NCBI GenBank assembly: GCA_014762625.1 | Contig: JABURQ010000121.1 | Span: forward strand, 1 to 39,955 | Direction of reading: 5' to 3' | Source of the DNA: Planctomycetaceae bacterium | GTDB lineage: Bacteria > Planctomycetota > Planctomycetia > Planctomycetales > Planctomycetaceae | DNA length: 39,955 nt | Position numbers and translations under genes: made by a program | The notes under the pieces: generated by a model | What the model was told of the DNA's origin: nothing | The model's database searches: none | The model's input: the letters and a program-made list of their open reading frames with translations, nothing else | Shown here: positions 485 to 39,783 of the stretch, piece after piece | Layout of the letters: each line of letters begins with the position of its first letter | How positions within the stretch are numbered: position 1 is the stretch's first letter

Positions 485-712
485 AGACAGAGAAACGCCA
501 AGAAAAAAGAGACCACGAATCAAACAAATGACACGAATGGAACAAGTTGCCGCGAATACGAATCAATCATTTGAGGAACCGCGGATGACGCGGATTTCTC
601 GGATAGAAATTGAAGTATCACCGACCACCATTCAGCGACGAGCAGACTGTGGAGATCACGCGAAGGGAAGCAGTAAGAACACGGATGAATCGGGAGAAAA
701 CAGAGACCCACC

Positions 713-856
713 GAAAAGAAAAGAAGACTCGCGCTGAGGCGCGGCGGCGCAGAGAAAAGGATCAACATTCGGCGCCTGCCGTAGGCCGACGTGAAGGAAA
801 CGCTTCTTCTCGCGCCCTCGGCCTTACTCCGAGCTAATCGCTCCGCGGCCTGCGTC
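713..856 (+). repeat. Dispersed structured repeat, copy B (right end missing)
   Basis: It matches copy A closely from the AAAAGAAAAGAAGACTCGCGC lead through the CCGAGC hairpin and the GGCCTGCG segment. It then stops where the methyltransferase gene ends: the reverse stop codon is at 859-861, and the right terminal segment with GAATGTT is absent. The copy therefore abuts the 3' end of a minus-strand gene and would supply a stem-loop at the end of its transcript. Confidence 0.7.
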
Positions 857-858
857 TG

Positions 859-1542
859 TTATTGCTTCCGGAAGCGGACGAAGTATGATTCGTCCAACAG
901 GTCCAGCTTCTCATCGATTTGGACAAAGCCGCTATCGAGAATCTCTTTGGTGAAGACTTCCTGTCCCGCGCGAACGTGTCCCAGAATCCATTCGTCGCTC
1001 ACGCCTTCGATCCGCTGGAAGTCGATCAGTACCACTTCCCCGCCCGGCTTGAGGGCTCGGTGGATCGAACGCATCGTTTTATAGGGATACTCGAAATGGT
1101 GGTAGGTATCGCAGATGAAGACCAGATCGACCGAGTTTGGCGGCAACTCGACGGAGTCAGGTTTGCAGACGACCGTTTGAATATTCGTCAAACCCTGCTC
1201 TTTGGCGGTCTTCTTGATGTGGGAAGTGAACTCTTCCGAGATATCGACCGCATACACTTTGCCGCACGGACCGACCCGCGGAGAAAACTGCCGGGTGAAC
1301 AATCCCGTCCCGGCTCCAACATCGGCGACCTTCATCCCCGGTTTGAGGGCCAGCGCGGCGAGAATTTCTTTCTGATGATCGAAGACATCCCGGCCTTCCC
1401 GTTCGAAACGTTCGATAAATTTAGGGACGTCGGGAGACTCAAAGCTCTTGTTGATCCCCGGCTTGACGCTCTTTTCCTGAGCGAGAAGCGGCGCGGTCGT
1501 GAGCGTGATTAAAGTCAGCAATAACGCGGTAAATCGAAACAT
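859..1542 (-). CDS. Exported SAM-dependent class I methyltransferase
   Basis: The 227-residue protein has a clear N-terminal signal peptide (MFRFTALLLTLITLTTAP, cleavage after LLA-Q), followed by a class I methyltransferase fold. Motif I is VADVGAGTGLFT, the acidic end of strand beta-2 is VYAVDIS, and a Methyltransf_11-like region contains CDTYHHF and LKPGGEVVLIDF. The start at 1542 is chosen because the signal peptide begins there and an AAAGG ribosome site precedes it; an upstream in-frame ATG at 1683 adds a non-conserved stretch. Export of a SAM-dependent enzyme is odd, because SAM is cytoplasmic, but secreted-looking members are common in planctomycetes. The substrate is unknown. Repeat copy B lies directly downstream. 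Confidence 0.85.
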   Translation of the reverse strand: MFRFTALLLTLITLTTAPLLAQEKSVKPGINKSFESPDVPKFIERFEREGRDVFDHQKEILAALALKPGMKVADVGAGTGLFTRQFSPRVGPCGKVYAVDISEEFTSHIKKTAKEQGLTNIQTVVCKPDSVELPPNSVDLVFICDTYHHFEYPYKTMRSIHRALKPGGEVVLIDFQRIEGVSDEWILGHVRAGQEVFTKEILDSGFVQIDEKLDLLDESYFVRFRKQ

Positions 1543-1643
1543 CGAATGACCTTTGATGTAGGCAATGGAATAAATGTCTGCGACACATCTCTGATTGTGG
1601 AGCGACGGATTGAAAGAGTCAAGATGCTGGGAGCGAATGTGTT

Positions 1644-2107
1644 TCAACGCCAAACAGTGTAGAGGCAGTGAAGGTAGGTGCATAAAGAACCTCTCACTTC
1701 TCCAATTTCGATCTGTTCAAGTGACGCATCCGTCTCATGCACCAGCAGGTTTCGCAGTTTCCTGACATCTTGAACCTGTAACAGAGTGTCATCAGGGACA
1801 TGAGCTTTTGCAGCGACGCTGTCTATCAAAACTTCCGCCGGAGTTTGCTTCTTATGCTCCTCGGGACGGTTGCGATTCCAGTATTTTCTGAGTCCGGTTT
1901 CAAATTCTGCGAAGATACGAACAATGTAGGTACCTTCAAAAGATTTGCATCCGCTTGATGCACATCCAGGACCCGAACAATGTTCCCCAGAACGGTCGGA
2001 TCGTGATCGATCGTGACGTTCATTCGATCGATGGCGAGACGAGAAGCCTGATACTCTCGCTCCACATCTTTGACACGTTTCATCCAAAGCTGAGGTTTAA
2101 GAGCCAT
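1644..2107 (-). pseudogene. HEPN-like protein, broken by a frameshift
   Basis: Two overlapping reading frames make one protein. Residues from 2107 read MALKPQLWMKRVKDVEREY through VHQADANL, then a -1 shift at the T-run near 1938-1941 is needed to continue with FEGTYIVRIFAEFETGLRKYW to the stop at 1644. The second part holds RNLLVHE, the Rx4H signature of HEPN ribonuclease-type domains, after a helical region. The combined length would be about 154 residues. Its start overlaps the stop of the upstream partner (2097-2525) by 11 bases, so the two were co-translated. The break is best explained by loss of one T in a homopolymer. The HEPN assignment rests on the motif and helical pattern only. Confidence 0.6.
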
Positions 2108-2525
2108 TCCTGCTCATCTCTTTCAAGATGTTTGACAAGGTCTCTTTGGTAAGTGGTTTCGCTGTCGCTTCTCTGATCTTCTGCACCGTGGGCGAATTCG
2201 GAGACATGTAATGAGTCATCCAACCATCGTCGGAGTGATAGAACGAAGCAATATCGTCCAGACCGGGCATGAGATACAAATCGACGACACCATCCGCACC
2301 GGGAGCGGAATGTGTGATCGGTTCCAGAAGTACCTTGACTGTTTCCTTTTGCATCACGAGTGCAGGAGCGGAGTATTGGCCAATCGATGGACTCTTCAAG
2401 CGAGTTTCAATGCGTTTGGTGGACCAGTCTTCTTCTTGAGCCCACTCAGCGACCTGATTCACCAGGCCATCCAGTCGGTCCAACCATTCTGATTTCAGCT
2501 TTTCCGAGTTGGTCGTGGTGGACAT
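2097..2525 (-). CDS. Conserved hypothetical protein, partner of HEPN-like gene
   Basis: The 142-residue protein has no signal peptide or membrane segment. It opens with an acidic helical segment (SEKLKSEWLDRLDGLVNQV). A mixed alpha/beta middle part follows with SAPALVMQKETVKVLLEPI and GADGVVDLYLMPGLDDIASFY, and it ends with PLTKETLSNILKEM. I recall this pattern as a recurring hypothetical family but know no function. The start at 2525 has a GGAGAG ribosome site. It overlaps the HEPN-like gene by 11 bases, which suggests a two-gene unit, possibly toxin-antitoxin or defence-like with this protein as the neutralising or sensing partner. That role is inference. Confidence 0.6.
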   Translation of the reverse strand: MSTTTNSEKLKSEWLDRLDGLVNQVAEWAQEEDWSTKRIETRLKSPSIGQYSAPALVMQKETVKVLLEPITHSAPGADGVVDLYLMPGLDDIASFYHSDDGWMTHYMSPNSPTVQKIREATAKPLTKETLSNILKEMSRNGS

Positions 2526-2606
2526 TCTGAAATCTCTCTCCCAAAAATCGAGCCTTCCTACAGCATACCCTATGATGTAAGTATGTCAACATTCTGTTGT
2601 TGACTC

Positions 2607-3440
2607 TCACATACTCGCCGGCAGCCCTTCCGTAATCGAAGGATAACTCGGCTGGAAGCCCAAACGGGCTTTCGCTTTCGCGTTGTTGCATTTCTTCCCG
2701 AGGTTGTCGCCATTGTCCTCCGCGAAGACTGGTTCCGGCGTGCCGAACTGTTGCGCGAGTTGGCTGTAATATTCTCTGCGGAGAATGGGGCGATCGTCCG
2801 AAATCAGAAACAGCTCGTTGATCGCGTCGGGGGAAGCTTCGCACTTCAGAACCGCCTGCACGGCGTCTTCGACGTGGATCAGGTTGAGATAGCCGTCGGG
2901 ATTGCCGCGCATCGGTTCGCGATTTTCAAGTTTCTCTTTACGGGCGAGTAAGCGATCGGGGCCGTAAATGCCTGAGAGGCGGAGGATGTTCCAGTCGCAT
3001 TTAGCTTGCGCGCGGATCAGGCTTTCCGCGTCCAGACAAACCTGGCCGTTATCCCGTTCCGGTTCGGTCTGAGATGTCTCATCAACCGGCCCGCCGTCCG
3101 TCTGGCCGTAAACGCTCGTGCTCGAAATATAAATGAGACGTTGAGGAGTGAAGGACTCTGCCTGAAGGACATTCTTCAGTCCTTCGACATAGACTTCACG
3201 TTGCGAGAAGCCGGCGGAGCGATCGAGCCCGACGGCATACAGGCAGGTCGCGATGTCCTCGGGGAAAGTGAGCGTCTCCGGTTGCATGACATCACCCACA
3301 AGAGGATGCAGGCCTTCTTGTCGGAATTGTTCGGCGGTTTTTTCGGAGCGAGTCAGTGCGTAGATAGTCTCACCAGCTTCGAGCCATTTGCGAGCCACGC
3401 GATGTCCGAGATAGCCGCAACCGATAATGAGTTTGTTCAT
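2607..3440 (-). CDS. NAD(P)-dependent epimerase/dehydratase-like SDR (YeeZ type)
   Basis: The 277-residue protein starts with MNKLIIGCGYLGHRVARKWL, a Rossmann dinucleotide-binding motif of the GxGYLG form typical of YeeZ-like atypical extended SDRs. YISSTSVYGQ follows near residues 104-113, with a substrate-side region GIYGPDRLL and a late NLIHVEDAVQAVL. The length suits the family. The exact reaction is unknown; these proteins are usually annotated as nucleoside-diphosphate-sugar epimerase-like. The gene lies about 80 bases upstream of the two-gene HEPN cassette on the same strand. The ribosome site before ATG 3440 is weak. Confidence 0.8.
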   Translation of the reverse strand: MNKLIIGCGYLGHRVARKWLEAGETIYALTRSEKTAEQFRQEGLHPLVGDVMQPETLTFPEDIATCLYAVGLDRSAGFSQREVYVEGLKNVLQAESFTPQRLIYISSTSVYGQTDGGPVDETSQTEPERDNGQVCLDAESLIRAQAKCDWNILRLSGIYGPDRLLARKEKLENREPMRGNPDGYLNLIHVEDAVQAVLKCEASPDAINELFLISDDRPILRREYYSQLAQQFGTPEPVFAEDNGDNLGKKCNNAKAKARLGFQPSYPSITEGLPASM

Positions 3441-3476
3441 AGGTTCGAATTTCCGATACGAATCCGATCAAAAATT

Positions 3477-3558
3477 TCTCCCCCTTGGCAAGGGGGAGAT
3501 CAAGAGGGGGTGACTCTGTTTCTTAAAAAACCCCTATAGTCCCCCTTGGTAAGGGGGA
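3477..3558. repeat. Pair of C/G-rich palindromes
   Basis: A perfect palindrome TCTCCCCCTTG-G-CAAGGGGGAGA occupies 3477-3499, and a second, TCCCCCTTGGTAAGGGGGA, occupies 3540-3558. A G-rich half-site (CAAGAGGGGG) lies between them. Paired palindromes of this composition in a gap between minus-strand genes look like a small non-autonomous element. Confidence 0.65.
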
Positions 3559-3586
3559 CAGAATTATGAAACTATCCCAAACAGAC

Positions 3587-3619
3587 AAAAAAACCTTCGA
3601 GCCCGAAGACTCGAAGGTT
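3587..3619 (-). terminator. Rho-independent terminator of ahcY
   Basis: On the minus strand the sequence forms AACCTTCGAG, an 8-base loop, then CTCGAAGGTT, followed directly by a run of T (A7 at 3586-3592 on the plus strand). The perfect 10-bp stem begins 28 bases after the ahcY stop codon. Confidence 0.92.
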
Positions 3620-3646
3620 GAGGTTGTCATCAGGCACAATGCCGAA

Positions 3647-4975
3647 TCAGTAACGGTAGTGTTCCGGCTTGTAAGGTCCTTCCACCGGCACGCCGATGTA
3701 GTCGGCCTGATCTTCGGTGAGGACTTCCAGTTTGATGCCGATCTTTTCGAGGTGGAGTCGGGCGACTTCTTCGTCCAGCTGTTTCGGCAGGACGTAGAGA
3801 TCGTTCTCGTAGTTGCTGTGGTTTTCCCACAATTCGATCTGAGCCATCACCTGGTTGGTGAAACTGTTAGACATCACGAACGACGGGTGACCGGTCGCAC
3901 AACCGAGGTTCACCAGACGACCTTCCGCCAGCAGGATCACTGCTTTGCCGTCCGGGAAGGTGTACTTGTCGACGGGACCACCTTCGTCGGCTTCGGTTTT
4001 AATACGGTCTTTTTCGATGCCGTCGGTATTGTTGAGATACGCAACGTCGATTTCGGTATCGAAGTGACCGATGTTGCAAACGATGGCATTATGCTTCATC
4101 GCCTGGAAGTGCTCGGGACGAATGATGTCTTTGTTACCGGTGGTGGTGACGAAGATATCTCCGATGGAGGCCGCTTCCGACATATTGGTGACTTGATAGC
4201 CTTCCATCGAAGCCTGCAAGGCACAGATCGGATCGATCTCTGTCACGACGACGCGGGCTCCAAGTCCGTCCATCGCATCGGCACAACCTTTACCAACGTC
4301 ACCGTAGCCGGCCACGACGACCACTTTACCGGCGACCATTACGTCGGTGGCTCGTTTGATGCCGTCGGCCAATGACTCACGACAGCCGTAGAGGTTGTCA
4401 AACTTACTCTTGGTGACCGAATCGTTGACGTTGATCGCAGGCACACCCAACTTGCCGTCTTTAATCAACTTGCGGAGCGTCTTGATTCCGGTGGTGGTTT
4501 CTTCGGAGAGTCCCCGAATTTCTTCGAGCATCTCAGGGTGTTTACGATGCACGAGATCGGTCAGGTCGCCGCCGTCATCGAGAATCATGTTCAGGGTCTG
4601 GCCGTCGGGCCAGTAAAGTGTTTGTTCGATGGCCCACCAGAATTCGTCTTCCGACATCCCTTTCCAGGCGAAGACCGGGATGCCTGCGGCGGCGATGGCG
4701 GCAGCGGCGTGATTTTGCGTCGAGAAGATGTTACAGCTCGACCAGCGAACTTCGGCACCGAGTTCGACGAGCGTTTCGATCAGGACTGCTGTCTGAATAG
4801 TCATGTGCAGACAGCCGGCAATGCGAGCTCCTTTGAGCGGTTTTTCGGCTCCGTATTTTTCACGAAGAGCCATCAGGCCGGGCATTTCAACCTCGGCGAG
4901 CTCGATCTCTTTTCGTCCGAGTTCGGCGAGCTCGATGTCTTTGACTTTGTACGGGAGAGGTGTCGTTGTCGACAT
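3647..4975 (-). CDS. ahcY: Adenosylhomocysteinase (S-adenosyl-L-homocysteine hydrolase)
   Basis: The 442-residue cytoplasmic enzyme splits S-adenosylhomocysteine into homocysteine and adenosine, using bound NAD. Family hallmarks are plain: [30 protein letters not shown], the NAD-binding GYGDVGKG at residues 223-230, [11 protein letters not shown], and the C-terminal signature ending KPEHYRY with the lysine and tyrosine that reach the neighbouring subunit. The start at 4975 is preceded by GAAGGAA and matches the family N terminus; the open frame continues 75 codons upstream without similarity. The gene diverges from metF-metH, which use its product homocysteine, so this locus rebuilds methionine from SAH. 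A strong terminator follows. Confidence 0.97.
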
Positions 4976-5292
4976 ACAATTTCCTTCTGTTGGTCTTGAC
5001 CAAAAAGTGAATTTTCCAGTGCGGTTGCAATTCGAACCGCGATCTCTAGGCTCAAGTAACCTGATTTTAGCGACTACAAACGGAGTTGTAGCAATTATTC
5101 TAGAGTCGAACGGCTGTCGTCGGCCTGTGCGGCCTGTGTTAGCAACGTTGGATTGACTAACATAGAGTATTTGGCGGTAACTCTCAACGTACCCGTTCAT
5201 GTCCGCCGCTGTGGTGACAGTAAATCTTTGTAAGTCTCACTAGAACCACGATTAACGTTTAATCATCAACTGTTTTGAAAGCCTGGAAATCC
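4976..5292. promoter_or_regulatory. Divergent control region between ahcY and metF-metH
   Basis: This 317-base gap must hold the promoters of both transcripts. On the ahcY leader side there are two short hairpins: GCGGTT/AACCGC at about 5021-5040 and a near-perfect TTGGTC-TT-GACCAA at 4990-5003, just upstream of the ahcY ribosome site. I looked for the conserved cores of SAM and SAH riboswitches and did not find them. An AT-rich TTAACGTTTAATCA segment lies near 5252-5265, ahead of metF. Confidence 0.5.
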
Positions 5293-6177
5293 ATGCAACT
5301 GAACGACATTTTCAGTTCCGGCCAGTTTGGCCTCTCGATTGAGATCTTCCCTCCCAAGACTGAAAAGGGAGAGGATGCGCTCGCCAAAAATCTGACCCGT
5401 CTGGTTCGTTACCAGCCGGCTTTTATCTCATGTACATATGGTGCAGGGGGGACAACGCAAGACAAAACGCTCGATTGGTGCGACCGTCTGCAAGGGGAAT
5501 TCAAGCAACACGCGACCGCTCATTTCACCTGTGTGGGATCGACACGGGAGCAGTTAATCGATTGGCTGAACCGGGCGAAAGATCGCGGTGTCCAGAACAT
5601 CATGGCTCTCCGCGGAGACGCTCCCGAAGGCCAGGATTCTTTCCAGGCCGTGGAAGGAGGACTCTCCTATGCGAACGAACTGGTGACTTTGATTCGCGAT
5701 GAATTCGGAGACCAGTTCGGGATTGGGGTCGCCGGTTATCCCGAGAAACATCAGGAAGCACCGGATGAAGAGACCGATCTAGCCAATTTGAAACGCAAGG
5801 TCGATAGCGGGGCCGATGCGGTGTTCACTCAATTGTTTTTTAATAACGAGAACTTTTTCCGTTTTCGCGACCGTTATCAGCAGGCGGGAATCACAGTGCC
5901 TCTGATTCCGGGCATCATGCCGATCACAGGTTTTGCTCGCATCAAACGCATCACGGCGATGTGCGGTGCCGTTTTTCCGGAGGAACTTTACCAGAAGCTG
6001 GAAGCCGTTCAGGAGGATGATGAAGCGCAGCTTGAAATCGGCGTCGAGCATGCGATCAATCAATGTCGCGAGTTGATGGAACAGGGAGCACCGGGAATTC
6101 ATTTCTACGTGCTCAACAAATCGGAAGCCTGCGAACGGATTCTCGACGCGCTCGACATTCAGCCTGCCGGAGTCTGA
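5293..6177 (+). CDS. metF: Methylenetetrahydrofolate reductase
   Basis: The 294-residue flavoprotein reduces 5,10-methylenetetrahydrofolate to 5-methyltetrahydrofolate, the methyl donor for the MetH encoded next to it. The MetF (beta/alpha)8 pattern is clear: [14 protein letters not shown] near the N terminus with the catalytic glutamate, [54 protein letters not shown], and the C-terminal [15 protein letters not shown] 5293 is preferred over the TTG at 5275 because it fits the family N terminus, though its ribosome site is poor. metH begins 71 bases downstream with no terminator between, so they form an operon. Confidence 0.95.
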
Positions 6178-6248
6178 ACAGCTTCGTCGTTACTCCGGTT
6201 TTCTCTTTTCATAGATCTTACTCAGACACAGAATCTCCCTAAAAATTT

Positions 6249-9200
6249 ATGCCCACACTGCCTAAGTCTCCCACACAAAAACAACTGGAAGAAATCCTCG
6301 ACGATCGCATTCTGCTCCTCGACGGTGCGATGGGATCGCTCATCTTTGCCGAAAAGTTGACGGAAGAAGATTATCGCGGCGAGAAATTTGCCGACCATCC
6401 CTGCGACCTGCGCAACAGCAACGACACTCTCGTGCTGACCCAGCCGCAGATTATCGAGAAGATTCATCGCCAGTATCTCGATGCCGGTTCGGACATCATC
6501 GAAACCAATACGTTCAACGCCAACACGATTTCGCTCGGCGAATATCAACTGCAGGATTACACGCGGGAGATCAACAAAACCGCCGTCGAACTTGCCAGAA
6601 AAGCGGCGAAAGAATACAGCGACAAAAATCCCGACAAGCCGCGTTTTATCGCCGGCAGTATCGGGCCGATGAACGTTTCGCTGACGCAGACGATCGACGA
6701 CAACGATCCGTCCTTGCGCGGGGCGACCTGGGATCAAGTGGTCGCCGGGTATACCGAGCAAATCTACGGCCTGTTGGAAGGTGGCGTTGATCTGCTGCTG
6801 CCGGAGACTTCTTTCGATACCGCCAACATGAAGGCTTGTCTGTTTGCGATTCAAAATGTCTTCGACAAAGAGGGAATCACGCTTCCGGTGATGGTTTCGG
6901 GAACGGTCTTCGAAGGCGGTCGGACGTTGCAGGCGCAAACGCTGGAATCGTTCGTCAACTCCATTTGTCACTTTCCGATGATGAGCGTTGGTCTGAACTG
7001 CGGCCTCGGACCGCAAAAGATGCGACCGTTTATCGAAGATGTCGCCAACCGCACCGATCGTTACGTCAGTTGCTATCCGAATGCCGGGCTGCCCAACGAA
7101 ATGGGAGAGTTCGACATGCAGCCAACCGAGATGGCCGATCATCTGCGGGACTTCGCCGAACAGGGGTGGCTGAACTTTGTCGGTGGATGTTGCGGCAGCA
7201 CACCGGCGCATCTCAAAGCAATCGGTGAGGCGGTGGAAGGGATCGCCCCGCATCGGAAATCCAAACCGTCCACTTTCGCTCGCTACAGTGGCCTCGAAAC
7301 CGTCACGATCCGCCCCGAATCGACGTTCATCATGGTCGGCGAGCGGACCAACGTTACCGGCTCGAAACGGTTCGCCCGTTTGATCAAGGAAGAAAAATAC
7401 GAAGAAGCCCTCTCGGTCGCCCGCGATCAGGTCGAAAACGGGGCCAACATCATCGACGTGAATATGGATGAGGGGTTGATCGATAGCGCGGCGGCGATGG
7501 CAAAATTCCTGAACCTCATCGCCTCCGAACCCGATATCGCCACCGTCCCCGTGATGATCGATTCGTCCAAATGGGACGTCATCGAAGCGGGGCTGAAGTG
7601 TGTGCAGGGGAAACCGGTCGTCAACTCCATCAGTATGAAAGAAGGAGAGGAGGAGTTTCTCCGGCAAGCGCGACTCGCCCATCAGTACGGAGCCGCGGTG
7701 GTCGTGATGGCGTTCGACGAAGAAGGTCAGGCCGTCGAAGCGGATCACAAAGTCGAGATCTGCAAACGAGCCTACAAGTTACTGACGGAAGAAGCCGACT
7801 TCGTGCCGCAGGACATCATCTTCGATCCGAACATTCTGACCGTCGGCACGGGGATGGACGAACATGCCAACTACGCGGTCGAGTTCTTCGAAGCCGTCAA
7901 ACGGATCAAGCAGGAATGCCCCGGTGCTCTCACCTCGGGCGGAGTGAGTAACGTCTCGTTCTCGTTCCGTGGAAACAATGTGGTCCGGGAGGCGATGAAC
8001 GCCGCCTTCCTGTATCACGCGATTCAAGCCGGCCTCGACATGGGGATCGTCAACGCGGGACAACTCGAGGTCTACGAAGAGATCGATCCTGAACTGCTCG
8101 TTTATATCGAGGACGTGCTCCTCAATCGTCGCGAGGACGCGACCGAACGGCTGATCGAATTTGCCGAAACGGTCAAAGAAAAAGAGACCGACGACGATTC
8201 CGACAAGGCTTCCTGGCGGGACGGCACCGTCGAGGAACGCCTGAAGCACGCCTTGCTTAAAGGGATTCTCGACCACATCGACGAAGACACCGAAGAAGCC
8301 CGGCAAAAGTACGGCCGTCCTCTGGAAGTCATCCAGGGACCGCTCATGGACGGCATGGACGTCGTCGGAAAATTGTTCGGCGAAGGGAAAATGTTCCTGC
8401 CGCAGGTGGTCAAAAGCGCCCGCGTCATGAAGAAGTCGGTCGCCTGGTTAACTCCCTACATGGAAGCCGAAAAAGCGGAACTGGGCGACGAATCGACCGA
8501 CCGCGGCAAGGTGCTCATCGCGACTGTGAAAGGGGACGTCCACGATATCGGCAAAAACATTGTCGGGGTCGTGCTGCGTTGTAACAGTTTCGACGTGATC
8601 GATCTCGGCGTGATGCAGCCGTGCGAAACCATTCTCGATAAAGCTGAAGAAGAAGGAGCCCAGATCATCGGACTCTCCGGTTTGATCACACCGTCTCTCG
8701 ACGAAATGGTGATCGTGGCTCGCGAGATGAAACGTCGGGGCATGACTCAGCCGCTGCTTATCGGCGGAGCCACCACCAGTAGCAAGCATACGTCCGTAAA
8801 AATTGCCACGGAATACGATCACCCGGTCGTCCACGTCCGCGATGCCTCGACCAGCGTCCCGATCGTCGAGAAGCTGATCGACCAAGAGGGACTCGACGCT
8901 TTCGTGGCTGAAAATCTCAAAAAACAGGAGCAGGAACGGGAAGCGTATTCGTCTCGCAAAGACAAAAAACTGGTCCCGTATTCCGACGCCCTGGAACGTC
9001 GTTTTACCACCGACTGGTCGTCCATCGACATTCCCGAACCGGCATTTACCGGGTCGAAAGTGCTCGACGATTTTCCGCTCGAAAAACTGGTCGATTACAT
9101 CGACTGGTCGCCGTTCTTTATGGCCTGGGAGTTGAAAGGGAAGTATCCGAAAATCTTTGAAGACGAACACGTGGGCCATGAAGCGAAGAAACTGTTCGAC

Positions 9201-11932: not shown

Positions 11933-14900
11933 ATGTCCGCCGAAAATTTATCCCCGGAATCGACGTCCGATTCGGCAAATTCTGCCGATTCCTCGAAACG
12001 AACTCGAACAGCGCGTCGAAAACGTCGCCGATTCCTGAAATTTATGATTTATTTCGCCCTGCTGCTGGCGGCGGCGATCGCCGCTGCGCCCGAAATCATC
12101 GCTCGCACCTCGCTACGGAACACGTTGATCCATCGCTTCTCGCCGGAGTACGAAGGGCGTGTGGTTCTCGGAGCGACCTCTCTCGGCTGGCTGAAGCCGA
12201 TTTCCCTCCAGCAGCTCAAATTGCGTCATCTCGACGGCGAGACCTGGGCGGTGTTCAATGATCTGAAGAGTGAATACACCCTGCTCGATTTGATTCTGGA
12301 ACCGTCTCAGCTCGGTCACTGGTCCGCTTCGCAGTGTGATGTGACTGTCCATTGCGAACCGGGGATGACGGATGTCGAACGCTGGCTACTTGAAGTCTCC
12401 CAAGAACAACAGGCCGATCGACCGTCGAATGTCTCCTTCTCCGCCGACTCGATGCTGTTGACCCTCAAATCAACCGCGCAGGAATCCCGATTCCAGATCG
12501 CCGATTTCGAGTATCGACAGACAGAGACGCGCGAAGTCGGTATCGCCGGTGAGGCGAGCGTGCTGACGGAGATCGCCGACTCGGCTCCCGGCTCTCTCGA
12601 TCTCAAACTTGATGTCACCGATCAATCCGAGGCGGTCCTGACCACCTCGGCATTTCCACTGGAATCACTCGGACCGCTCTACGTGCGGCTCGGTCTGCTG
12701 AAGCCGGTCTCTGGAACGCTGGAGGGTTCCTGGAAACTGACCGGTGGCTCGCAAGGAATGTTTGCCTTGGATGGGCGAGGCACCGCTCGAGACTTCAGCA
12801 TCGGAAAACCGGACGCTCCTCAGTTTTCGGTGGAGTCGTTGAATCTCGATCTCGCCGCCGATCAAAGCGAATCCGGCTGGACTGTTTCGCGACTTCAGGG
12901 ACAAACCGATTTCGGTGAAATGACGCTGGACGGGACCGTTTCTCTTCCCTCCTCGTGGAAACAGGAAGCGGCTTTGGAGACGTTGCTCGATCAATCGTTC
13001 GCGGTGACGGGAAATGTTTCGTTGAAGTCTCTGGCCGAGCACTTTCCGGGATTGATCACCCTGCAACAAGAGGTCGAACTTCAACAGGGAAGCAGTTCGT
13101 TTCGGGTCGAATCCCGGCCTGAAGCCGAAACTCCTCGTTTGACGGCGCAGCTGAATGTCAGCAATATCGTCGCGAAAACTCCCGAGCGCGCCATCTCCTG
13201 GAGCACGCCGCTGACCGCCCAGGCCACACTTCTGCGCCCCGATCAGCAATGGACCATCGAACAACTGGACGTCGAATCGAAAGCGGTCCGACTGACCGGA
13301 CGCGGGAACTGGAACTCCGCCGAAATCACCGCCGATGTGAACCTCGCCGAGTTCCTGGAAGAGTGGAGCCGCATTTTCGATTTCGGCGATCTGCAACTCG
13401 CCGGGCATCTGACCGGCAAAGCGACCTGCGAAACGACCTCTGCGGGGCCGATTACGTTGTCGGGAGATTTGCAGTGTGAATCTCTGGTGCTGGGTTGGAC
13501 CGGTGGGAAACCGTGGAACTTTGAGGAACTCGCGGCAAACTTCTCCGGCACAGGGGAACTCGACGACCGTCGAAACCTCAATCTGACGGCCTTCACAACG
13601 ACTCTTACCTCCGATCGGGATACGTTGACTCTCACACAACAGGAATCGGATCATGGAGCGACGGTCTGGCAGGTTGAGGGGAACGGCAGCCTGTCCGGAT
13701 TGTTGGGACAAGTGCTGGCGACGCGGATCGAGGGGCGACTCTCGGGTAAGTACACGCTGACTTCCCAGCTCCATCGCGATCCGACAACCGACCGACTGCA
13801 AGCCCTGAGCCTGGAGGTGACCGATTTCGGTTACGATTCCTCAGAACTCAGTTTGCGGGAATCGAAACTGAAACTGACCGGTGCACTGAGCCACGACCGG
13901 CACGAAAACATCATCCAGAGCGACGAGCTGATCCTCAATTGCCCGACTCTCGCCGCTCGGCTGAACGAATTGAACCTGCCTCGATCGAATCCCGCCCTGA
14001 CCTCTCTGAAACTCGCCGCGCGAGGACGCATCGAACGGCTCGGGAAGCTAATCGCCTCGACAGAATCCCGGCAGATTCCGACCGGTATGCTGAATCTTCA
14101 ACTTTCAGCGACGGGAATCGAACAAGGCTCGAACCTCGTCTGGAAGGTGACTGCGGACGATCTGCAATGGCCGGAACGCGTCCAGCAACCTGCCACCCGA
14201 CCTGTGTCCGAGTCTTCCTCTCAAACACCGGACTTTTCGTTGGAGTGGAGTGGGAAAGGATTGTACGCCTCGGCGGATGATGTTCTCACGATCGCGGGTA
14301 GTCGGCTGACGGCAGACGGTCTCGACTGTCGGGTCTCGGGAGAAATCAGTGAGCTCTCGACGTCTCCTTTCATCAGCCTGAGCGGCGAGCTCGACTACGA
14401 ATGGGCGGTGCTGCGGAAGCTGTACCCGGAACTTACCGGTCCCGATCTCGTCCTGTATGGAAAACACAAAACTCCCGTGCGTTTGAATTATCCCTTGTCG
14501 TCGCCAGCTTCCAGGAAACCGATGTCCGGCTCGCTCGTGGTGGCCTGGGATCGGGGAGACTGGAACAGCCTTCCGATCGGTCCGGCGCAAATCACCGTCA
14601 ACCTGACCCCCGACAAACTGACGATCGAACCAACTCAAGTGACCGTTTCGAGCGGTTCGGCGCGCTTCGGTCCGAGTATCAGTCGTTCTCCGCAAGGAGC
14701 CGTGTTCACGCAACCGGCGGAACGCTTACTCGATCAGGTCCAATTGACCGACGAAATCTGCCATCAGTGGCTGAAGTACGTCTCTCCAATGACGGCGGAC
14801 GCGGCCCGCGTGAGTGGAACTTTTTCGGTCGATAACTCGAAGCCGCTCCGCATTCCTCTCGATCATCTGGAACAGACCACTTCCGAAGGACTGGTGATGA

Positions 14901-31497: not shown

Positions 31498-31810
31498 GTG
31501 TCAGGAAGTCACACGGTACTCGATCAAGAATGCCGGCTTGCCGGTGATCCCTCAGAAGAATCTTCGACACACAGTCGCTACGATCCTACTCGGGCGAAAG
31601 TGGCCGCTAAAGACCGTTTCCAATCTGCTGGGGCACTCGAACATCCAGACGACAGCCAACTTCTACGGCCAATTCACTGATGGGATTCATTCCGAGGCAG
31701 TGGCTGATTGGAACTCCGCAATCACGCCTAAAGGCTGCGCAATGGCTGCGCCGGAACGAAAAAGCGACTCCCCGGAATCTTCCGAGAAGTCGCAAGGTGT
31801 TACTGAGTAA
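31498..31810 (+). pseudogene. Tyrosine recombinase C-terminal remnant, plus strand
   Basis: The frame reads YSIKNAGLPVIPQKNLRHTVATILL, then VSNLLGHSNIQTTANFYGQF, containing the RHxxA box, the GHS histidine box and the catalytic tyrosine of a phage-type integrase. The N-terminal and core-binding domains are missing; upstream in-frame sequence is not integrase-like. The last residues (AAPERKSDSPESSEKSQGVTE) run into the 236-bp direct repeat, and a tRNA 3'-end fragment follows the stop at once, the usual position of an attachment site. Confidence 0.7.
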
Positions 31811-31971
31811 CACAATGGGGCTGACAGGAATCGAACGGGATTCCGTAACTGACTGTGACAGCATCGACTTACAATAATTGACCGAATCGGGCGCTGCAAT
31901 ATCCGGTGCAGTTGGTCCTGATTCGTGCCAGTATGACAGCCGATTGCAACGCATCATCGATGCCTGGCCGA
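31736..31971 (+). repeat. 236-bp direct repeat, copy 1, with attachment-site core
   Basis: It is nearly identical to 34529-34764; differences are confined to a few bases at the left. It contains a GCGACT/AGTCGC stem, the perfect palindrome GTGTTAC-TGA-GTAACAC (31797-31813) and, at 31816-31836, a segment equal to the reverse complement of a tRNA T-arm and acceptor end (GTTCGATTCCTGTCAGCCCC on the minus strand). The last part is the start of a short frame with the motif IIDAWP. The two copies bracket 2557 bases of cargo. Confidence 0.85.
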
Positions 31972-34308: not shown

Positions 34309-34528
34309 GCCACTGCTGTGAATCTGCCGGCAATATTGAAACCCACTCCCATTTGGGAAAAGGCACTTCGGTCGTGCTCTCCACTTGTGCATTAAGAAAT
34401 GACATTCCGTGGTAAAGGCAAATCAGGGAAAAGTATTCGTTCTTTGGCTCAAGAAACGGATTCGCAGAAACCGTGAAGTGCCTGTCGTGATCAAGAATTG
34501 TTGAGCCGTCCATCAGATTTCCAATTGT

Positions 34529-34764
34529 TGCGCAATGGCTGCGCCAGACGAAAAAAGCGACTCCCCGGAATTTTCCGAGAAGTCGCAAGGTGTTACTGAG
34601 TAACACAATGGGGCTGACAGGAATCGAACGGGATTCCGTAACTGACTGTGACAGCATCGACTTACAATAATTGACCGAATCGGGCGCTGCAATATCCGGT
34701 GCAGTTGGTCCTGATTCGTGCCAGTATGACAGCCGATTGCAACGCATCATCGATGCCTGGCCGA
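34529..34764 (+). repeat. 236-bp direct repeat, copy 2, with attachment-site core
   Basis: It repeats 31736-31971 almost base for base, including the palindrome GTGTTAC-TGA-GTAACAC and the tRNA 3'-end fragment (34609-34629). Unlike copy 1, no integrase fragment precedes it: only the last 24 codons of that reading frame are present. This suggests that copy 2 arose when a DNA segment integrated or duplicated at the attachment site. Confidence 0.85.
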
Positions 34765-34847: not shown

Positions 34848-35366
34848 CTAGTTAAGCCCTAATTCTCTTATCGTCTTTATTGGCAAATACAAATGATTCT
34901 CATCGTCCATCAGGGAGCAGAAACCATATTTGAGATAGAAGCTTTTTGCTGACTCATCGATTGCATCAAGTACGACTGCCCGGATTCCAATTTTTTCAGA
35001 CAATTTATGGACCTGCCTGAGCGCATCCATCAACAAGAGTTCTCCTAGATGCTGCCCTTGGTGATTCTTGTCAATTGCCAGTTTACCAATGAGTATCACA
35101 GGGATACTCATTCTAGGTGGCAATCCTTTGGCAAGGTCCTCCGGGAGCGTCTCATACTCTATTGAATGGCTAGATAGTGTGTAGAAGCCGCATACCTTTG
35201 GACTACCCTCTGAAATCAATACAAACAGTCGGGCAAGATCTCTTTTCAGGAACTGGGATGCCTGCTTTTTGAGCCAATTATCTAAAGAATCACGACCGCA
35301 ACTGAAATCCTTGCGGTCGTGATCGGGTTTAGCGAATGGCACTATTTCCCATTTTTTATCCGCCAT
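34848..35366 (-). CDS. GNAT acetyltransferase toxin (TacT/AtaT-type)
   Basis: The 172-residue GNAT protein belongs, by pattern, to toxins that acetylate aminoacyl-tRNA and block translation. It has FSCGRDSLDNWLKKQASQFLKRDLARLFVL, then VCGFYTLSSHSIEY, the acetyl-CoA loop region LAIDKNHQGQHLGELLLMDAL, and the tyrosine helix AKSFYLKYGFCSL. Its start follows the stop of the DUF1778 antitoxin by one base, so the two are translated together. The target tRNA is unknown. AT-rich composition and position within integration debris point to transfer. Confidence 0.9.
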   Translation of the reverse strand: MADKKWEIVPFAKPDHDRKDFSCGRDSLDNWLKKQASQFLKRDLARLFVLISEGSPKVCGFYTLSSHSIEYETLPEDLAKGLPPRMSIPVILIGKLAIDKNHQGQHLGELLLMDALRQVHKLSEKIGIRAVVLDAIDESAKSFYLKYGFCSLMDDENHLYLPIKTIRELGLN

Positions 35367-35367
35367 T

Positions 35368-35646
35368 TTATTTCATGAAACTCTTGTAACGTTCTGCAGC
35401 TGAGATCAAGGTTTCATTGGGCTCAATGTTATTCTCATCAATTGCTGCGAGGAATAAATCTCGATCTCGATTAGACAACTGAGTCGTTCGCGCTTCATGA
35501 AGGACCTGACGTGCTTCACGTACCAAGCATGAGGTTGTAAAGTCACTAACAGTCTGACCTAAAGCTGTAGCTGCATCCTCGATGATAGCCTTGATATCTT
35601 TCTGCATACGCACACTGATTCGGGTTTCGTTTTTCAATGCAGCCAT
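35368..35646 (-). CDS. DUF1778 ribbon-helix-helix antitoxin (TacA-type)
   Basis: The 92-residue protein begins MAALKNETRISVRMQKDIKAIIEDAATALGQTVSDF: a ribbon strand then two helices, the N-terminal RHH DNA-binding fold of DUF1778 antitoxins. The C-terminal arm (about 50-92, RQVLHEARTTQLSNRDRDLF) would wrap the toxin. ATG 35646 has AAGGAGGGG upstream; an in-frame ATG 19 codons earlier is not favoured. It lies directly before the GNAT toxin. Two TGTGTG palindromes upstream are its likely operators, so the pair probably represses itself. Confidence 0.88.
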   Translation of the reverse strand: MAALKNETRISVRMQKDIKAIIEDAATALGQTVSDFTTSCLVREARQVLHEARTTQLSNRDRDLFLAAIDENNIEPNETLISAAERYKSFMK

Positions 35647-35738
35647 TTTACACCCCTCCTTATCACAATATTCCGATTGATATGAATACCATCCGGTTAT
35701 CATTTCTCACCATCCTGCCACATTACTCAATAGGATTC

Positions 35739-36143: not shown

Positions 36144-36953
36144 CTGGATCGAATCACGGTCCACAGTCCGAAAACCGAACATCACGAAGGGGGCGAAAGC
36201 CGAGTGATTCCGATCTTCCCTGAGATCAGACCGTATCTGGATGAGGTTTGGGAACAGGCAGAAGATGAGGCGGAGTACGTCATCACACGCTATCGTGAGC
36301 GGAATTCCAACTTGCGGACACAATTGAAACGGATCATAAAAAAAGCCGGCCTGAAACCCTGGCCGAAGTTGTTTCACAATCTCCGCAGCACACGGGAAAC
36401 CGAACTCGCAGAACAATTCCCGATGCACACCGTTTGCAGTTGGATCGGAAACTCTCAATTGATTGCCGCGAAGCATTACCTGCAAGTGACCGAAGATCAC
36501 TTTCAAGAAGCGCTGCAGAATCCGGTGCAGCAACCCCGCGTAGGAGTTCGCAAGTGGGGGAAGTCGTCACCCGAAGCCGATCAGAAACCCCGTAAAAAAC
36601 AAGAGGCTGCAACAAAGTGCAGCCCCTTGCAAAATCAAAATGTGGGGCTGACAGGAATCGAACCTGCACTCCCGAAGGAACGGGATCCTAAATGTGGCAC
36701 ATGCGTTTCCGCTGTTGTCCAGATGCATCCAAAGTTTCGGCAAAAAGAGAGTAGAACGTCTCTCTGTTTCTTTCGGTGTCCAGACGAATCCAGCCGTTTT
36801 CCTACCGCGTTGTTGCGCAACTGTTGCGCGTCCCTGTCTGGGGACGAAATCGCATGGCATCGCTCGCGAACGTCGAAGCGAGATCGTGGAAGCTGGGGCG
36901 GAGCGGTTCGCGATGTTGGACCGAAAAAAATTTGCGGACTTCCAGAAAACTGA
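36144..36953 (+). pseudogene. Tyrosine recombinase C-terminal remnant with tRNA-derived tail
   Basis: Directly after an in-frame stop at 36141 the frame reads [28 protein letters not shown], then [22 protein letters not shown] and [24 protein letters not shown]. This has the HxLRxTR box, the W-for-H box and the catalytic tyrosine of a planctomycete integrase family. The N-terminal half is missing. The end of the protein, [11 protein letters not shown], is encoded by the reverse complement of a tRNA 3' end, a known result of integration into tRNA genes. Beyond about 36690 the frame stays open but is not integrase-like. Confidence 0.75.
36643..36694 (-). other. tRNA 3'-half fragment (probably tRNA-Leu UAG), attachment-site remnant
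   Basis: Read on the minus strand, the segment runs TTTAGGATCCCG, TTCCTTCGGGAGTG, CAGGTTCGATTCCTG, TCAGCCCCA. This fits an anticodon loop with UAG, a class II long variable arm, a T-arm and an acceptor 3' strand. No matching GGGGCTG 5' acceptor strand lies upstream, so it is not a complete gene. The T-arm and acceptor part is the same sequence that appears in both 236-bp repeats, which makes it the third attachment-site copy in this region. Confidence 0.55.
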
Positions 36954-37195: not shown

Positions 37196-37387
37196 GTGAG
37201 TACGTCAGAAAAAACTGTCGGATCGGCAACTATTAGTGTTCGCGAAGCGGCTCGTTATATCGGAATCAGCCGGTCGAAACTCTACGAAATGATCAGGGAT
37301 CGAGAAATCAAATCGATCCGAATCGGCGCGTCGCGTCGCTTCCGAGTCCGCGATTTGGATGAATTCCTGGAAGCGTGTTACTCGTGA
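37196..37387 (+). CDS. Excisionase-like HTH DNA-binding protein
   Basis: The 63-residue protein is one winged-helix unit of the HTH_17/excisionase type: SVREAARYIGISRSKLYEMIRDREIKS is the helix-turn-helix, and IRIGASRRFRVRDLDEFL the wing and last helix. Such proteins bend DNA at attachment sites to direct excision, or act as small regulators. The GTG start at 37196 has GAGAAGGGG before it. It lies between the candidate small RNA and the DnaB-N/RepA ATPase, a typical order for a planctomycete integrative element. Confidence 0.85.
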   Translation: MSTSEKTVGSATISVREAARYIGISRSKLYEMIRDREIKSIRIGASRRFRVRDLDEFLEACYS

Positions 37388-37535: not shown

Positions 37536-39347
37536 ATGACGGCAACAATGAATAACGGACGCGCGATACGTCAAACCGGCGCGACGCCCCCACATGATGC
37601 AGACGTCGAACGGGTAATCCTCGGTTCAATTCTCGTCGACCCCGAACGGTCGCTTGCAGACTGCAGCGCGCTGACACCGAGCGATTTCTATATTCATCAA
37701 AATCGCAAATTCTTTCAGGCGATTCAGCATCTTCACAGCGAACATGATGAAATCAACCCGCTCACGGTTGCGGAGGCGCTGGAGAGGTCCAGGCAACTCG
37801 AAAAGGATGAAGACGTTCCGGCTCTGGCAGACCTGATGGAACACGCCGACCCGCATATGGTGAAGCGAATGTGCGGCAGGGTGCGCGAGCTGCGAGAACG
37901 CCGTGATGCGATTCGCAAAGCTCGCGAGCTGGAGCGCATGGCGTGCGATCCATCAGTCGCGCTCGATGACCTGAAAGCCGAAGCGCTGGAACTTTCCAGG
38001 GGTGACACAGGACAAAAAGAGCGGTTCCCGTCGCTTTCGGCAGCCGAACTCGATGCCGGTGATTTCGCGCTCGAATACCTCATTCCCGGCATGCTGGCAA
38101 AAGGGCAGCCGACGATTTGGGCGGCCCCGAAAAAATGCCTGAAAACAAACATTGGGATTGATCTCTGTTTGAGCCTCGCGAGTGGCTTCAAGTTCTTGAA
38201 CGAGTTCCACGTGAGCGGTCGGCATCAAGTCGCGTTCATCTCGGGGGAATCGGGCCGCGCCACAATCCAGGAAACAGCCCGCCGGGTCGCACGATCCAAG
38301 CGGCAACCGCTCCGCAACTTTGACGGCGTCCATTTCGTGTTCAACCTTCCGAGCCTGACCAGTGCGGAGGACGTGCGGCATCTTCGCCACTTCGTCGAAC
38401 AGCACGGTATTGAGGTCTTGTTTATCGATCCGCTCTACCTCTGCCTGGATGGGATCGGGGACGCGGCTGGCAATCTGTTTGAGGTCGGACCGATCCTGCG
38501 GAAGCTCTCGGAGTTGATGCAGGAACTCGGGGTGACATTGATTCTGTGCCATCACACACGCAAGGGCCAAGCCAACCCGTTCGAGTGCCCGGAATTGGAG
38601 GACATCGCGTGGGCTGGATTCCAGGAATTCGCCAGACAATGGATTCTCATCGGTCGACGGGAGAAGTACGACCCGGAATCGGATGGTGAGCATCGTTTGT
38701 GGCTCAATTGCGGCGGCTCGGCTGGTCACTCATCACTGTGGGGCGTGGACGTCACGGAAGGTCGATACGACGACGACGGGGGACGTCGATGGGAAGTGGA
38801 GATCGTTAAAGCATCGCAGGCCCGCGCGCGAGCTGCTGAAGAGGCGGAGGAACGTCAAGAGGCCGTGCAGAGCGAAAAGCAATTAAGAAAACACAATCGA
38901 CGCCGGGAGAAGGTCCTGGAAGCCGTGAGGGGATTTGAGGGCGGAGAGACAAAAACCCAGATTCGCGCAGCAGCGAAGATGGACGCCAAAACATTCAACC
39001 CGATATTCGATGAACTCATTGATGAACAGCTCATCGAACAGGTCGAGATCGAGAAAAACGGACGCCCTGAAAGGGGTTTTATTGCCGGTCGGATTCGGTC
39101 GGATAGCGGTCGGATTATCCCACCAAATCCGGGCGTTGGACGGTCGGTAGGATTCTCCCCCCTTAAGGGGGGAATCCCACCGTCCGACCGACCGACCCAC
39201 CAAACGACCACCGGTCGGGAGTTCCAAGAATCATCCGACCGTGAAGAGATCGAAGACCCGTTCCCCCCTCCAAGCGAATTAAGGGGATCGAACGGGCTCC
39301 CACCATTGCCGAGCGATCTCCCGATCCCGAAGGAGGAATGCGAATGA
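37536..39347 (+). CDS. DnaB-N / RepA-like ATPase, probable element replication protein
   Basis: The 603-residue protein combines a DnaB-type N-terminal domain (about 18-125, HDADVERVILGSILVDPERS and FYIHQNRKFFQAI) with a RecA-fold ATPase of the RepA/AAA_25 kind (about 175-430). Its nucleotide loop is unusual, AAPKKCLKTN at 196-205, lacking the classic GxxxxGKT glycines but keeping Lys-Thr. The Walker B-like strand VLFIDP (294-299) and LILCHHTRKG follow. A winged-helix-like segment lies near 455-510, then a disordered tail. It is probably the replication initiator or helicase of an integrated element. GGGGAGG precedes the ATG. The stop overlaps the next start as ATGA. The 3' end contains repeat and palindrome structure. 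Confidence 0.85.
   Translation: MTATMNNGRAIRQTGATPPHDADVERVILGSILVDPERSLADCSALTPSDFYIHQNRKFFQAIQHLHSEHDEINPLTVAEALERSRQLEKDEDVPALADLMEHADPHMVKRMCGRVRELRERRDAIRKARELERMACDPSVALDDLKAEALELSRGDTGQKERFPSLSAAELDAGDFALEYLIPGMLAKGQPTIWAAPKKCLKTNIGIDLCLSLASGFKFLNEFHVSGRHQVAFISGESGRATIQETARRVARSKRQPLRNFDGVHFVFNLPSLTSAEDVRHLRHFVEQHGIEVLFIDPLYLCLDGIGDAAGNLFEVGPILRKLSELMQELGVTLILCHHTRKGQANPFECPELEDIAWAGFQEFARQWILIGRREKYDPESDGEHRLWLNCGGSAGHSSLWGVDVTEGRYDDDGGRRWEVEIVKASQARARAAEEAEERQEAVQSEKQLRKHNRRREKVLEAVRGFEGGETKTQIRAAAKMDAKTFNPIFDELIDEQLIEQVEIEKNGRPERGFIAGRIRSDSGRIIPPNPGVGRSVGFSPLKGGIPPSDRPTHQTTTGREFQESSDREEIEDPFPPPSELRGSNGLPPLPSDLPIPKEECE
39086..39241. repeat. Iteron-like repeats and long palindrome inside the ATPase gene
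   Basis: CGGTCGGAT occurs three times in direct order at 39086-39094, 39096-39104 and 39107-39115, and once inverted (ATCCGACCG) at 39233-39241. Between them lies a long interrupted palindrome at 39138-39185: arms GGACGGT...ACCGTCC and GGATT...AATCC around the perfect centre CCCCCCTTAAGGGGGG. The protein encoded here is a low-complexity linker, so the DNA structure may be what is selected. It looks like a replication origin or attachment-related site. Confidence 0.6.
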
Positions 39348-39544
39348 CCCCGATTCAATGCCCGGCATGTCGGTCACACGAGCATCACCAGGAAGGCGAG
39401 AACCGTTTTCAGTGCGCTCGGTGCCTCTGGCGATTCCGGATCGATCAGAGCGGCAAACCTCGCGATCTGTTTGATTGGATGGCCGCAGGACGCAAACGAA
39501 AATCCAAACCTCGAAGGAGACCTCGACAATGCAGAACACGTTGA
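39344..39544 (+). CDS. Small zinc-ribbon protein
   Basis: The 66-residue protein starts MTPIQCPACRSHEHHQEGE and continues FQCARCLWRF: two CxxC knuckles 17 residues apart make a zinc ribbon. The tail is strongly basic (GRKRKSKPRRRPRQCRTR), which suggests nucleic-acid binding. ATG 39344 is chosen over the ATG at 39338 because AGGAGGA ends six bases before it. Its start overlaps the ATPase stop as ATGA, so translation is coupled. No specific role is known. Confidence 0.75.
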   Translation: MTPIQCPACRSHEHHQEGENRFQCARCLWRFRIDQSGKPRDLFDWMAAGRKRKSKPRRRPRQCRTR

Positions 39545-39783
39545 CCGAAACACCAACGCGAACCGACGCCGATTTCCGCGAGGAATTGAAGCGACGCATC
39601 GCGCTCTGGAACGAGATCATCACGGCGGAGATTCACATCGATCAGGCGGCTTGGCAAGAACTCGACGCGCTCGAAGCGGAGTTTTTGGAGGCTCGTCACG
39701 GCGGCGATTGGGAAACGTTCCTCTCGTGGCTGAATCGATATGAGCATCGATTGCAGTCCATCGCGGGGGAGCGTGTCCGATGA
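39529..39783 (+). CDS. Small acidic helical protein, unknown
   Basis: The 84-residue protein MQNTLTETPTRTDADFREEL is mostly helix with many acidic residues (AAWQELDALEAEFLEARHGGDWETFLSWL). No family is recognised. ATG 39529 has AAGGAGA upstream, and the gene overlaps the zinc-ribbon gene by 16 bases and the next gene by an ATGA. Dense overlaps of small genes downstream of a replication-type ATPase resemble phage or plasmid operons. Confidence 0.65.
   Translation: MQNTLTETPTRTDADFREELKRRIALWNEIITAEIHIDQAAWQELDALEAEFLEARHGGDWETFLSWLNRYEHRLQSIAGERVR

Follow-up and report, generated by a model that had tools for sequence, protein, structure and literature searches.

The window, i.e. the whole stretch of DNA analysed here, is an entire contig of 39,955 bases from a 6.23 Mb genome, and the element that it carries is cut by the contig end. 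A 51-bp copy of the 3' half of tRNA-Leu(tag) at 36643..36693, 100% identical to the gene on contig C30, is the probable left attachment site. It is followed on the forward strand by genes for an excisionase-like HTH protein of 63 aa (37196..37387; phrog_66 'excisionase and transcriptional regulator', 2.3e-9), a putative initiator-helicase of 603 aa (37536..39347) and a 66-aa protein (39344..39544) that overlaps the initiator stop codon (ATGA). This last ORF contains a CxxC...CxxC arrangement, zinc-ribbon-like by eye, for which Pfam gave a sub-threshold match only; a similar ORF (12348-12524) also follows the second copy of the initiator gene in this genome, locus L004. A tmRNA candidate at 36616-36667, which stays below the gathering score, could be dismissed: the tmRNA locus of the genome, on contig C25, has no blastn match to the window, and 36643-36693 is the tRNA-Leu(tag) 3' half.

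Two further stretches, 31736-31836 and 34520-34629, match the tRNA-Leu(tag) gene end with its flank at 91%. Two of the three tRNA-end copies fall in a 243-bp repeat of 97% identity, and an integrase fragment is present at 36204-36953. Judged from the sequence, the three copies look as if elements had inserted in tandem at a single tRNA gene. Between two of them, on the reverse strand (34848-35703), a GNAT acetyltransferase (172 aa) is encoded next to a TacA1-like antitoxin (111 aa, 4.6e-17), a pair that likely constitutes a TacAT-type toxin-antitoxin system. The second gene copy, L004 on contig C11, resides in an island of about 19.5 kb that contains an integrase and is bounded by a copy of a tRNA-Val end with 2 mismatches in 22. 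Its cargo at 650-8342, as identified by PADLOC, includes a Septu-like PtuA ATPase, HNH proteins, a large methyltransferase and a type I specificity-like protein. Among nine loci, none showed an exact 13-mer attachment repeat, and a search allowing mismatches, tried at three loci, gave one at L004 alone. A terminase gene is located near the relative L042.

The original prediction had assigned the host gene to a DnaB-N/RepA-like ATPase, and Pfam, an AlphaFold2 model and a structural match all bear this out. The protein comprises a DnaB_N domain (aa 18-105; PF00772, 8.8e-18), an AAA_25/RepA-like ATPase (aa 162-345; 1.2e-23), a predicted C-terminal winged helix-turn-helix (wHTH) domain at aa ~446-520, with a weak HTH match in Pfam, and a predicted disordered tail (aa 525-603). 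DnaB_C is absent at the curated cutoff (17.1 bits against 27), and AAA_25 and the wHTH are found instead. The AlphaFold2 model, based on 21 sequences and with a mean pLDDT of 72, is confident for the ATPase; block means are 88-96 for the wHTH up to residue 500 and 76-79 for residues 501-520, and drop below 50 for the tail. Because the N-terminal domain is modelled at low confidence, the DnaB_N assignment rests on Pfam. The best PDB match of the ATPase part is RSF1010 RepA (1g8y; Z 22.6, rmsd 3.0, 227 aligned residues), followed by the next non-RepA match at Z 20.6, with Twinkle, T7 gp4 and DnaB at about 20-21; this Z ranking is a second look at the ranking by Foldseek. K203 and D298 are invariant across 47 sequences. 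The ATPase part thus has the RecA fold of RSF1010 RepA, and the modelled fold suggests an RSF1010-RepA-like hexameric helicase with putative helicase activity. In the available part of PMC8965321, the RepA-family phage protein F13 GP46 is described as a 5'-3' helicase.

The 3' end of this gene contains a putative origin module at 39086..39241, supported by a recoding test and by comparison of homologues. Its first repeats start at nt 39086, in codon 517, within the last predicted strand of the wHTH (510-520), and the module continues into the tail. Three direct iterons, CGGTCGGAT(T/A), occupy 39086..39116 on the forward strand with start spacings of 10 and 11. They are followed by an interrupted palindrome at 39141..39186, whose left arm opens with CGGTCGG and whose core, CCCCCCTTAAGGGGGG, lies at 39157-39172. 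The core is GC-rich around a TTAA centre, which is the only A/T stretch seen in the window that would bear on an A/T-rich unwinding region. To the right of the core, two inverted CGGTCGG words overlap each other (39184..39194, reverse strand), and the outer iterons at 39212..39241 consist of a forward CGGTCGG at 39212 and the inverted ATCCGACCG at 39233-39241. The three direct (39086, 39096 and 39107) and one inverted copies of CGGTCGGAT that had been predicted are indeed present and lie around the palindrome, which is found where it had been placed. Its core, as TCCCCCCTTAAGGGGGGA at 39156-39173, was also correctly recognised, whereas the predicted length of 48 bases has to be corrected to 46 bases with mismatches. 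The module contains more repeats than had been listed: CGGTCGG occurs eight times within 156 nt on both strands (39086, 39096, 39107, 39141 and 39212 forward; 39184, 39188 and 39235 reverse), so that several short repeats lie inside an initiator gene, as in iteron origins. The whole window contains 26 copies, including these eight, versus 10.9 expected, and CCCCCCTTAAGGGGGG occurs only once in the 6.23 Mb genome.

The repeats do lie in a coding tail, as predicted, and the tail that they encode is predicted to be disordered. Low-complexity coding sequence or chance repeats devoid of a function at the DNA level would fit such a tail, and in some homologues (seen in L058 and L064) 15-nt repeats also repeat the peptide. 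For the window, codons 516-585 were randomly recoded for the same peptide with the codon use of the first 510 codons of the gene. The 75 repeated 7-mers observed were reached by none of 2000 recodings (mean 9.7, maximum 38), and the palindrome score by none of 500; none of 60 shuffles matched the score of the 46-base palindrome either. The repeat density corresponds to a z of 7.2 in the tail versus 0.7 in the gene body. Since the CGGTCGG copies occupy all three codon phases and the recodings never match the observed values, repeats and palindrome exist at the DNA level and are not forced by the peptide. Many modules in related genes, moreover, lie past the stop codon, and a low-complexity coding tail or chance repeats without DNA-level function are hardly credible as an account of this region.

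The persistence of the module was analysed in a set of 50 homologous genes, from which L021 (same place as L075), L041 (a distant DnaB match) and L008 and L060 (genes that run off the contig) had been removed; the chromosomal dnaB loci L025-L034 were not among the controls. The protein alignment included 47 of 52 sequences, the window's among them. The five homologues with named genome records are from planctomycetes, DnaB_N is found in 10/47 and Prim-Pol in 3/47 homologues, and tblastn searches with the window protein yielded only partial matches below 60% identity in 18 plasmid and 25 phage records. Across the 50 genes, repeats are sparse along the gene and most dense from about -240 to +160 nt relative to the stop codon. 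A z of at least 5 is reached by 32/50 tails versus 1/50 gene bodies, and imperfect palindromes that beat all 60 shuffles are present in 13/50 tails and 0/50 bodies. Two multi-copy genomes contribute 23 of the 50 genes; elsewhere, by hand count, 16/27 tails reach a z of at least 5. Eight tails (L035, L039, L040, L047, L072, L079, L080 and L024) stay below a z of 3, which counts against an origin. Of the 37 genes with a tail z of at least 4, 16 have the repeat peak inside the ORF, 11 across the stop codon and 10 past it. The repeat words differ from element to element among the tails inspected. Had homologues conserved the peptide and not the repeats, the original prediction would have failed; the opposite is observed, as 3'-end repeats persist in most homologues while peptide and repeat words change.

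A C-run, an A/T centre and a G-run, the pattern of the window core, are found in only 13/50 tails (three of them with CCCCTTTGGGG only), a low share that counts against an origin, versus 2/50 tails for a G-first core; each orientation occurs in 1/50 bodies and 1/47 downstream stretches. In L042 and L053, which belong to one genome, the longest identical run of 65 nt consists of the palindrome and its iterons, and the region from -280 to +220 of the stop codon is otherwise about 63-87% identical; the next longest identical runs are 51, 49 and 46 nt. The two related genomes G064 and G087 contain 13 and 11 matches to the initiator protein (L047, L058, L059, L061-L074 and L076-L081), several of which have GGTCC-type repeats at the 3' end. 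At or past the stop codons of L066 and L071, in the same genome, there are very long near-perfect hairpins of related sequence with arms of 32 and 34, which may represent a palindromic repeat dispersed in the genome and not a component of the module.

The location of the module in an initiator gene would also suit an autoregulatory or incompatibility site, i.e. an iteron control locus by which the initiator limits its own expression or copy number, and iterons commonly act both as start site and as control locus. Such a site is nevertheless unlikely to be the explanation here, as the module occupies the 3' end, a long way from the promoter, and a search of 38800-39600 revealed no sigma-70-type promoter-like site. 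In addition, repression would presumably not require inverted arrays that enclose a GC palindrome with an A/T centre.

The core palindrome was also searched in IMG/VR independently of any protein. The TTTA core CCCCCCCTTTAGGGGGGG was found in at least 120 stretches versus 4 for a control of the same composition, and the TTAA core CCCCCCTTAAGGGGGG in 83 versus 12. After removal of duplicates, 93 (TTTA) and 63 (TTAA) distinct loci remained, 156 in total, of which 154 have an ORF of 120 aa or more no further than 700 nt away. The protein alignments took in 91/91 and 62/63 of the ORFs near the core and 80/127 distant ones. AAA_25 is present in the largest ORF within 700 nt of the core in 47/91 (TTTA) and 21/62 (TTAA) cases, in total 68/153, versus 3/80 ORFs more than 2.5 kb away (Fisher p 3e-12); the 85/153 near-core ORFs without AAA_25 count against an origin. 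A profile (HMM) of the planctomycete family matches 61/153 near and 3/127 distant ORFs. For 56 of these 61 near ORFs, the core is located 25-485 nt downstream of the stop codon; the other 5 have it inside the ORF, in three cases more than 1.2 kb from the ORF end. Among the near ORFs of the TTTA set, Prim-Pol was found in 15, Toprim_3 in 13 and DnaB_N in 1.

The viral cores are frequently embedded in inverted repeats. Among the loci with 120 nt on both sides (86/93 and 57/63), two or more inverted 8-mers are common to both flanks in 51/86 and 31/57 cases, versus 5.9% and 4.7% for flanks from different loci, 7.6% of 656 random positions, and 0/4 and 0/11 control palindromes. Of the control palindromes, the G-first one is the most frequent, with 46 stretches at 38 distinct sites, and it is the control for which gene neighbours were scanned. 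Only 2/38 of its sites match the family HMM, 5/38 share at least two inverted words and 0/38 at least four; the G-first palindrome thus behaves as a control. A separate repeat, GGGGGGTTAACCCCCC, occurs up to seven times per fetched stretch on contigs of 60-300 kb (L340, L341, L342 and L346) and is a dispersed repeat of another kind.

GC palindromes close to stop codons are reminiscent of transcription terminators or RNA structures at gene ends, and the 156 nt fold well as a single strand (z -4.9; none of 200 shuffles equally good). Yet a T-run next to the core is rare among the viral loci (3/93 and 4/63), in contrast to 6/12 AATT controls, and in the window the core at 39157-39172 is followed by AATCCCACC instead of a T-run and ends about 170 nt ahead of the stop codon. 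A terminator scan was blank at the core, and no Rfam family was found at the site up to E 1. As iterons and C-first preference would also be left unexplained, a role in termination or as RNA structure is very improbable. An equally small chance is given to another DNA site of the element, such as an origin of transfer, a partition or a recombination site, for which inverted repeats are typical. Partial scans of 28 distinct neighbouring ORFs at eight loci revealed no relaxase or ParA/ParB gene, the sole exception being a ParB_N domain on the L042 methylase, and the viral cores track a helicase gene, which argues against transfer or partition.

Recognition of the repeats by the C-terminal domain would be consistent with the way in which both diverge. 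Window protein and L004 are 73% identical in DnaB_N and 70% in the ATPase, versus 33% in the wHTH and 28% in the alignable tail. For pairs with an ATPase identity of 0.45-0.9 and at least three repeat words each, which are non-independent, the ratio of wHTH to ATPase similarity is 0.91 (n 41) when repeat words are shared and 0.73 (n 149) when they are not. Some pairs with nearly the same wHTH, for instance L066/L068 (wHTH 97%) and L069/L080 (87%), are exceptions that share no repeat word and speak against an origin.

Based on sequence and on analogy to known systems, 39086-39241 is probably the replication origin of an integrated mobile element, located within the 3' end of its own initiator-helicase gene. 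An origin inside the initiator gene had been proposed in the original prediction and gains support here, because the 3'-end repeats persist across homologues with changing peptide and because precedents exist. In the proposed mechanism, the C-terminal wHTH would bind the CGGTCGG iterons on either side of the palindrome, and RepA-like hexamers would assemble as rings on both sides. The A/T centre between the C and G runs may then open, or the palindrome may extrude, allowing the helicase to load. Host DnaG primase would be recruited by the DnaB-type N-terminal domain, while homologues with fused Toprim or Prim-Pol domains could prime for themselves. The disordered tail would tolerate the DNA code, enabling the origin to sit in coding sequence. 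What the sequences show directly is the anatomy of the module, its persistence at gene 3' ends, repeats at the level of DNA and not of the peptide, and a statistical association of the core palindrome with this helicase family; binding, melting, recruitment of primase and replication are inferred.

It is conceivable, although we lean slightly against it, that phages, satellites and integrative elements have one widespread origin class in common, in which the C-first core constitutes a shared melting or priming site, and iterons and wHTH diverge jointly, such that each element fires its own origin only. For uncultured phages and integrative elements, the replication origin is seldom known, and a short palindrome that can be found by DNA alone tends to sit just past a recognisable helicase gene. 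Together with the frequent element-specific flanking repeats, the core would offer a direct and testable way to locate origins; if there is indeed one origin class, the core alone would locate them in uncultured phage genomes. Possible uses include vectors for planctomycetes and other hosts and the study of how origin specificity evolves, and the window itself provides a case of a putative origin overprinted on a protein tail.

In cultured phages, the picture is mixed. The core pattern is unmatched in the five phage relatives Serbin, PMBT14, MinS1, Lebethron and Dulem virus 35, and MinS1 and Dulem virus 35 have repeats past the stop codon by eye. Inspection by eye of nine further phages revealed repeats and a core-like palindrome after the helicase gene in CRP-831, 16-3 and RHph_Y3_1, repeats or a palindrome with no clear core in WO, Hayley, Lonelysoil and EFC-1, hairpins without repeat arrays in ctyzp037, and neither in Minerva. 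GC skew, which the original prediction had suggested as a check, was uninformative, as it marks the core neither in the L004 element nor in two circular phages, CRP-831 and RHph_Y3_1. The core pattern is also absent from the fetched stretches around N15 repA, the gene in which the N15 origin is located, and around BPP-1 bbp29, a difference from the window.

Within the open-licence literature searched, neither the conserved C-first core and its breadth nor a DnaB_N, RepA-like and wHTH protein with an origin in its tail was found; the core as four 12-mers matched three papers whose titles concern E. coli gene regulation. Among the closest known arrangements are those of TP901-1 ORF13 and Tuc2009 ORF16, replisome organizers that bind direct repeats in their own genes, which constitute the origin (excerpts of PMC8965321). 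Like the window, these phages and lambda O have an iteron origin inside the initiator gene, but the available excerpts describe their initiators neither as DnaB-N/RepA-like helicases with a C-terminal wHTH nor in connection with a C-first palindrome core. In SaPI and SCCmec, the origin lies directly downstream of the initiator-helicase gene, and the C-terminal domain of the helicase binds short iterons (excerpts of PMC7581432); in contrast to the window, the helicases are different ones (SaPI Rep and Cch2) and the origin is outside the gene. According to the available part of PMC4234260, replication of pRN1 needs a large stem-loop directly downstream of the gene for a wHTH-bearing primase-helicase, of which the structure is kept and the sequence varies, and which its authors regard as an origin without iteron structure; a stem-loop has also been proposed there for phage BIP-1/BPP-1. 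The pRN1 protein, an SF3 helicase with prim-pol, differs from the window protein, and the window palindrome lies inside the gene, not directly downstream; in many relatives the module does lie downstream.

The 302-bp origin of Streptococcus phage Sfi21 is annotated at the end of the primase gene and overlaps its coding end by 29 nt. With inverted GTTACT-rich arms around an A/T-rich centre it is akin to the window layout, although it is otherwise annotated as non-coding and a GC palindrome core is not seen; the region acts both as origin and as phage inhibitor (excerpts of PMC6356513). RSF1010 RepA has the same ATPase fold as the window protein. In RSF1010, three separate proteins provide iteron binding (RepC), helicase (RepA) and primase (RepB') functions (excerpts of PMC4234260), whereas the window protein would unite a putative binding domain, a helicase and a DnaB-N domain in one chain. 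A C-terminal winged helix has already been proposed as origin reader in PolpTN2, a related primase, and RepA-type fusions that join primase and WH domains have been described (excerpts of PMC5862659). Each part of the proposed arrangement in the window has a precedent in TP901-1, Tuc2009, SaPI, SCCmec, pRN1 or Sfi21.
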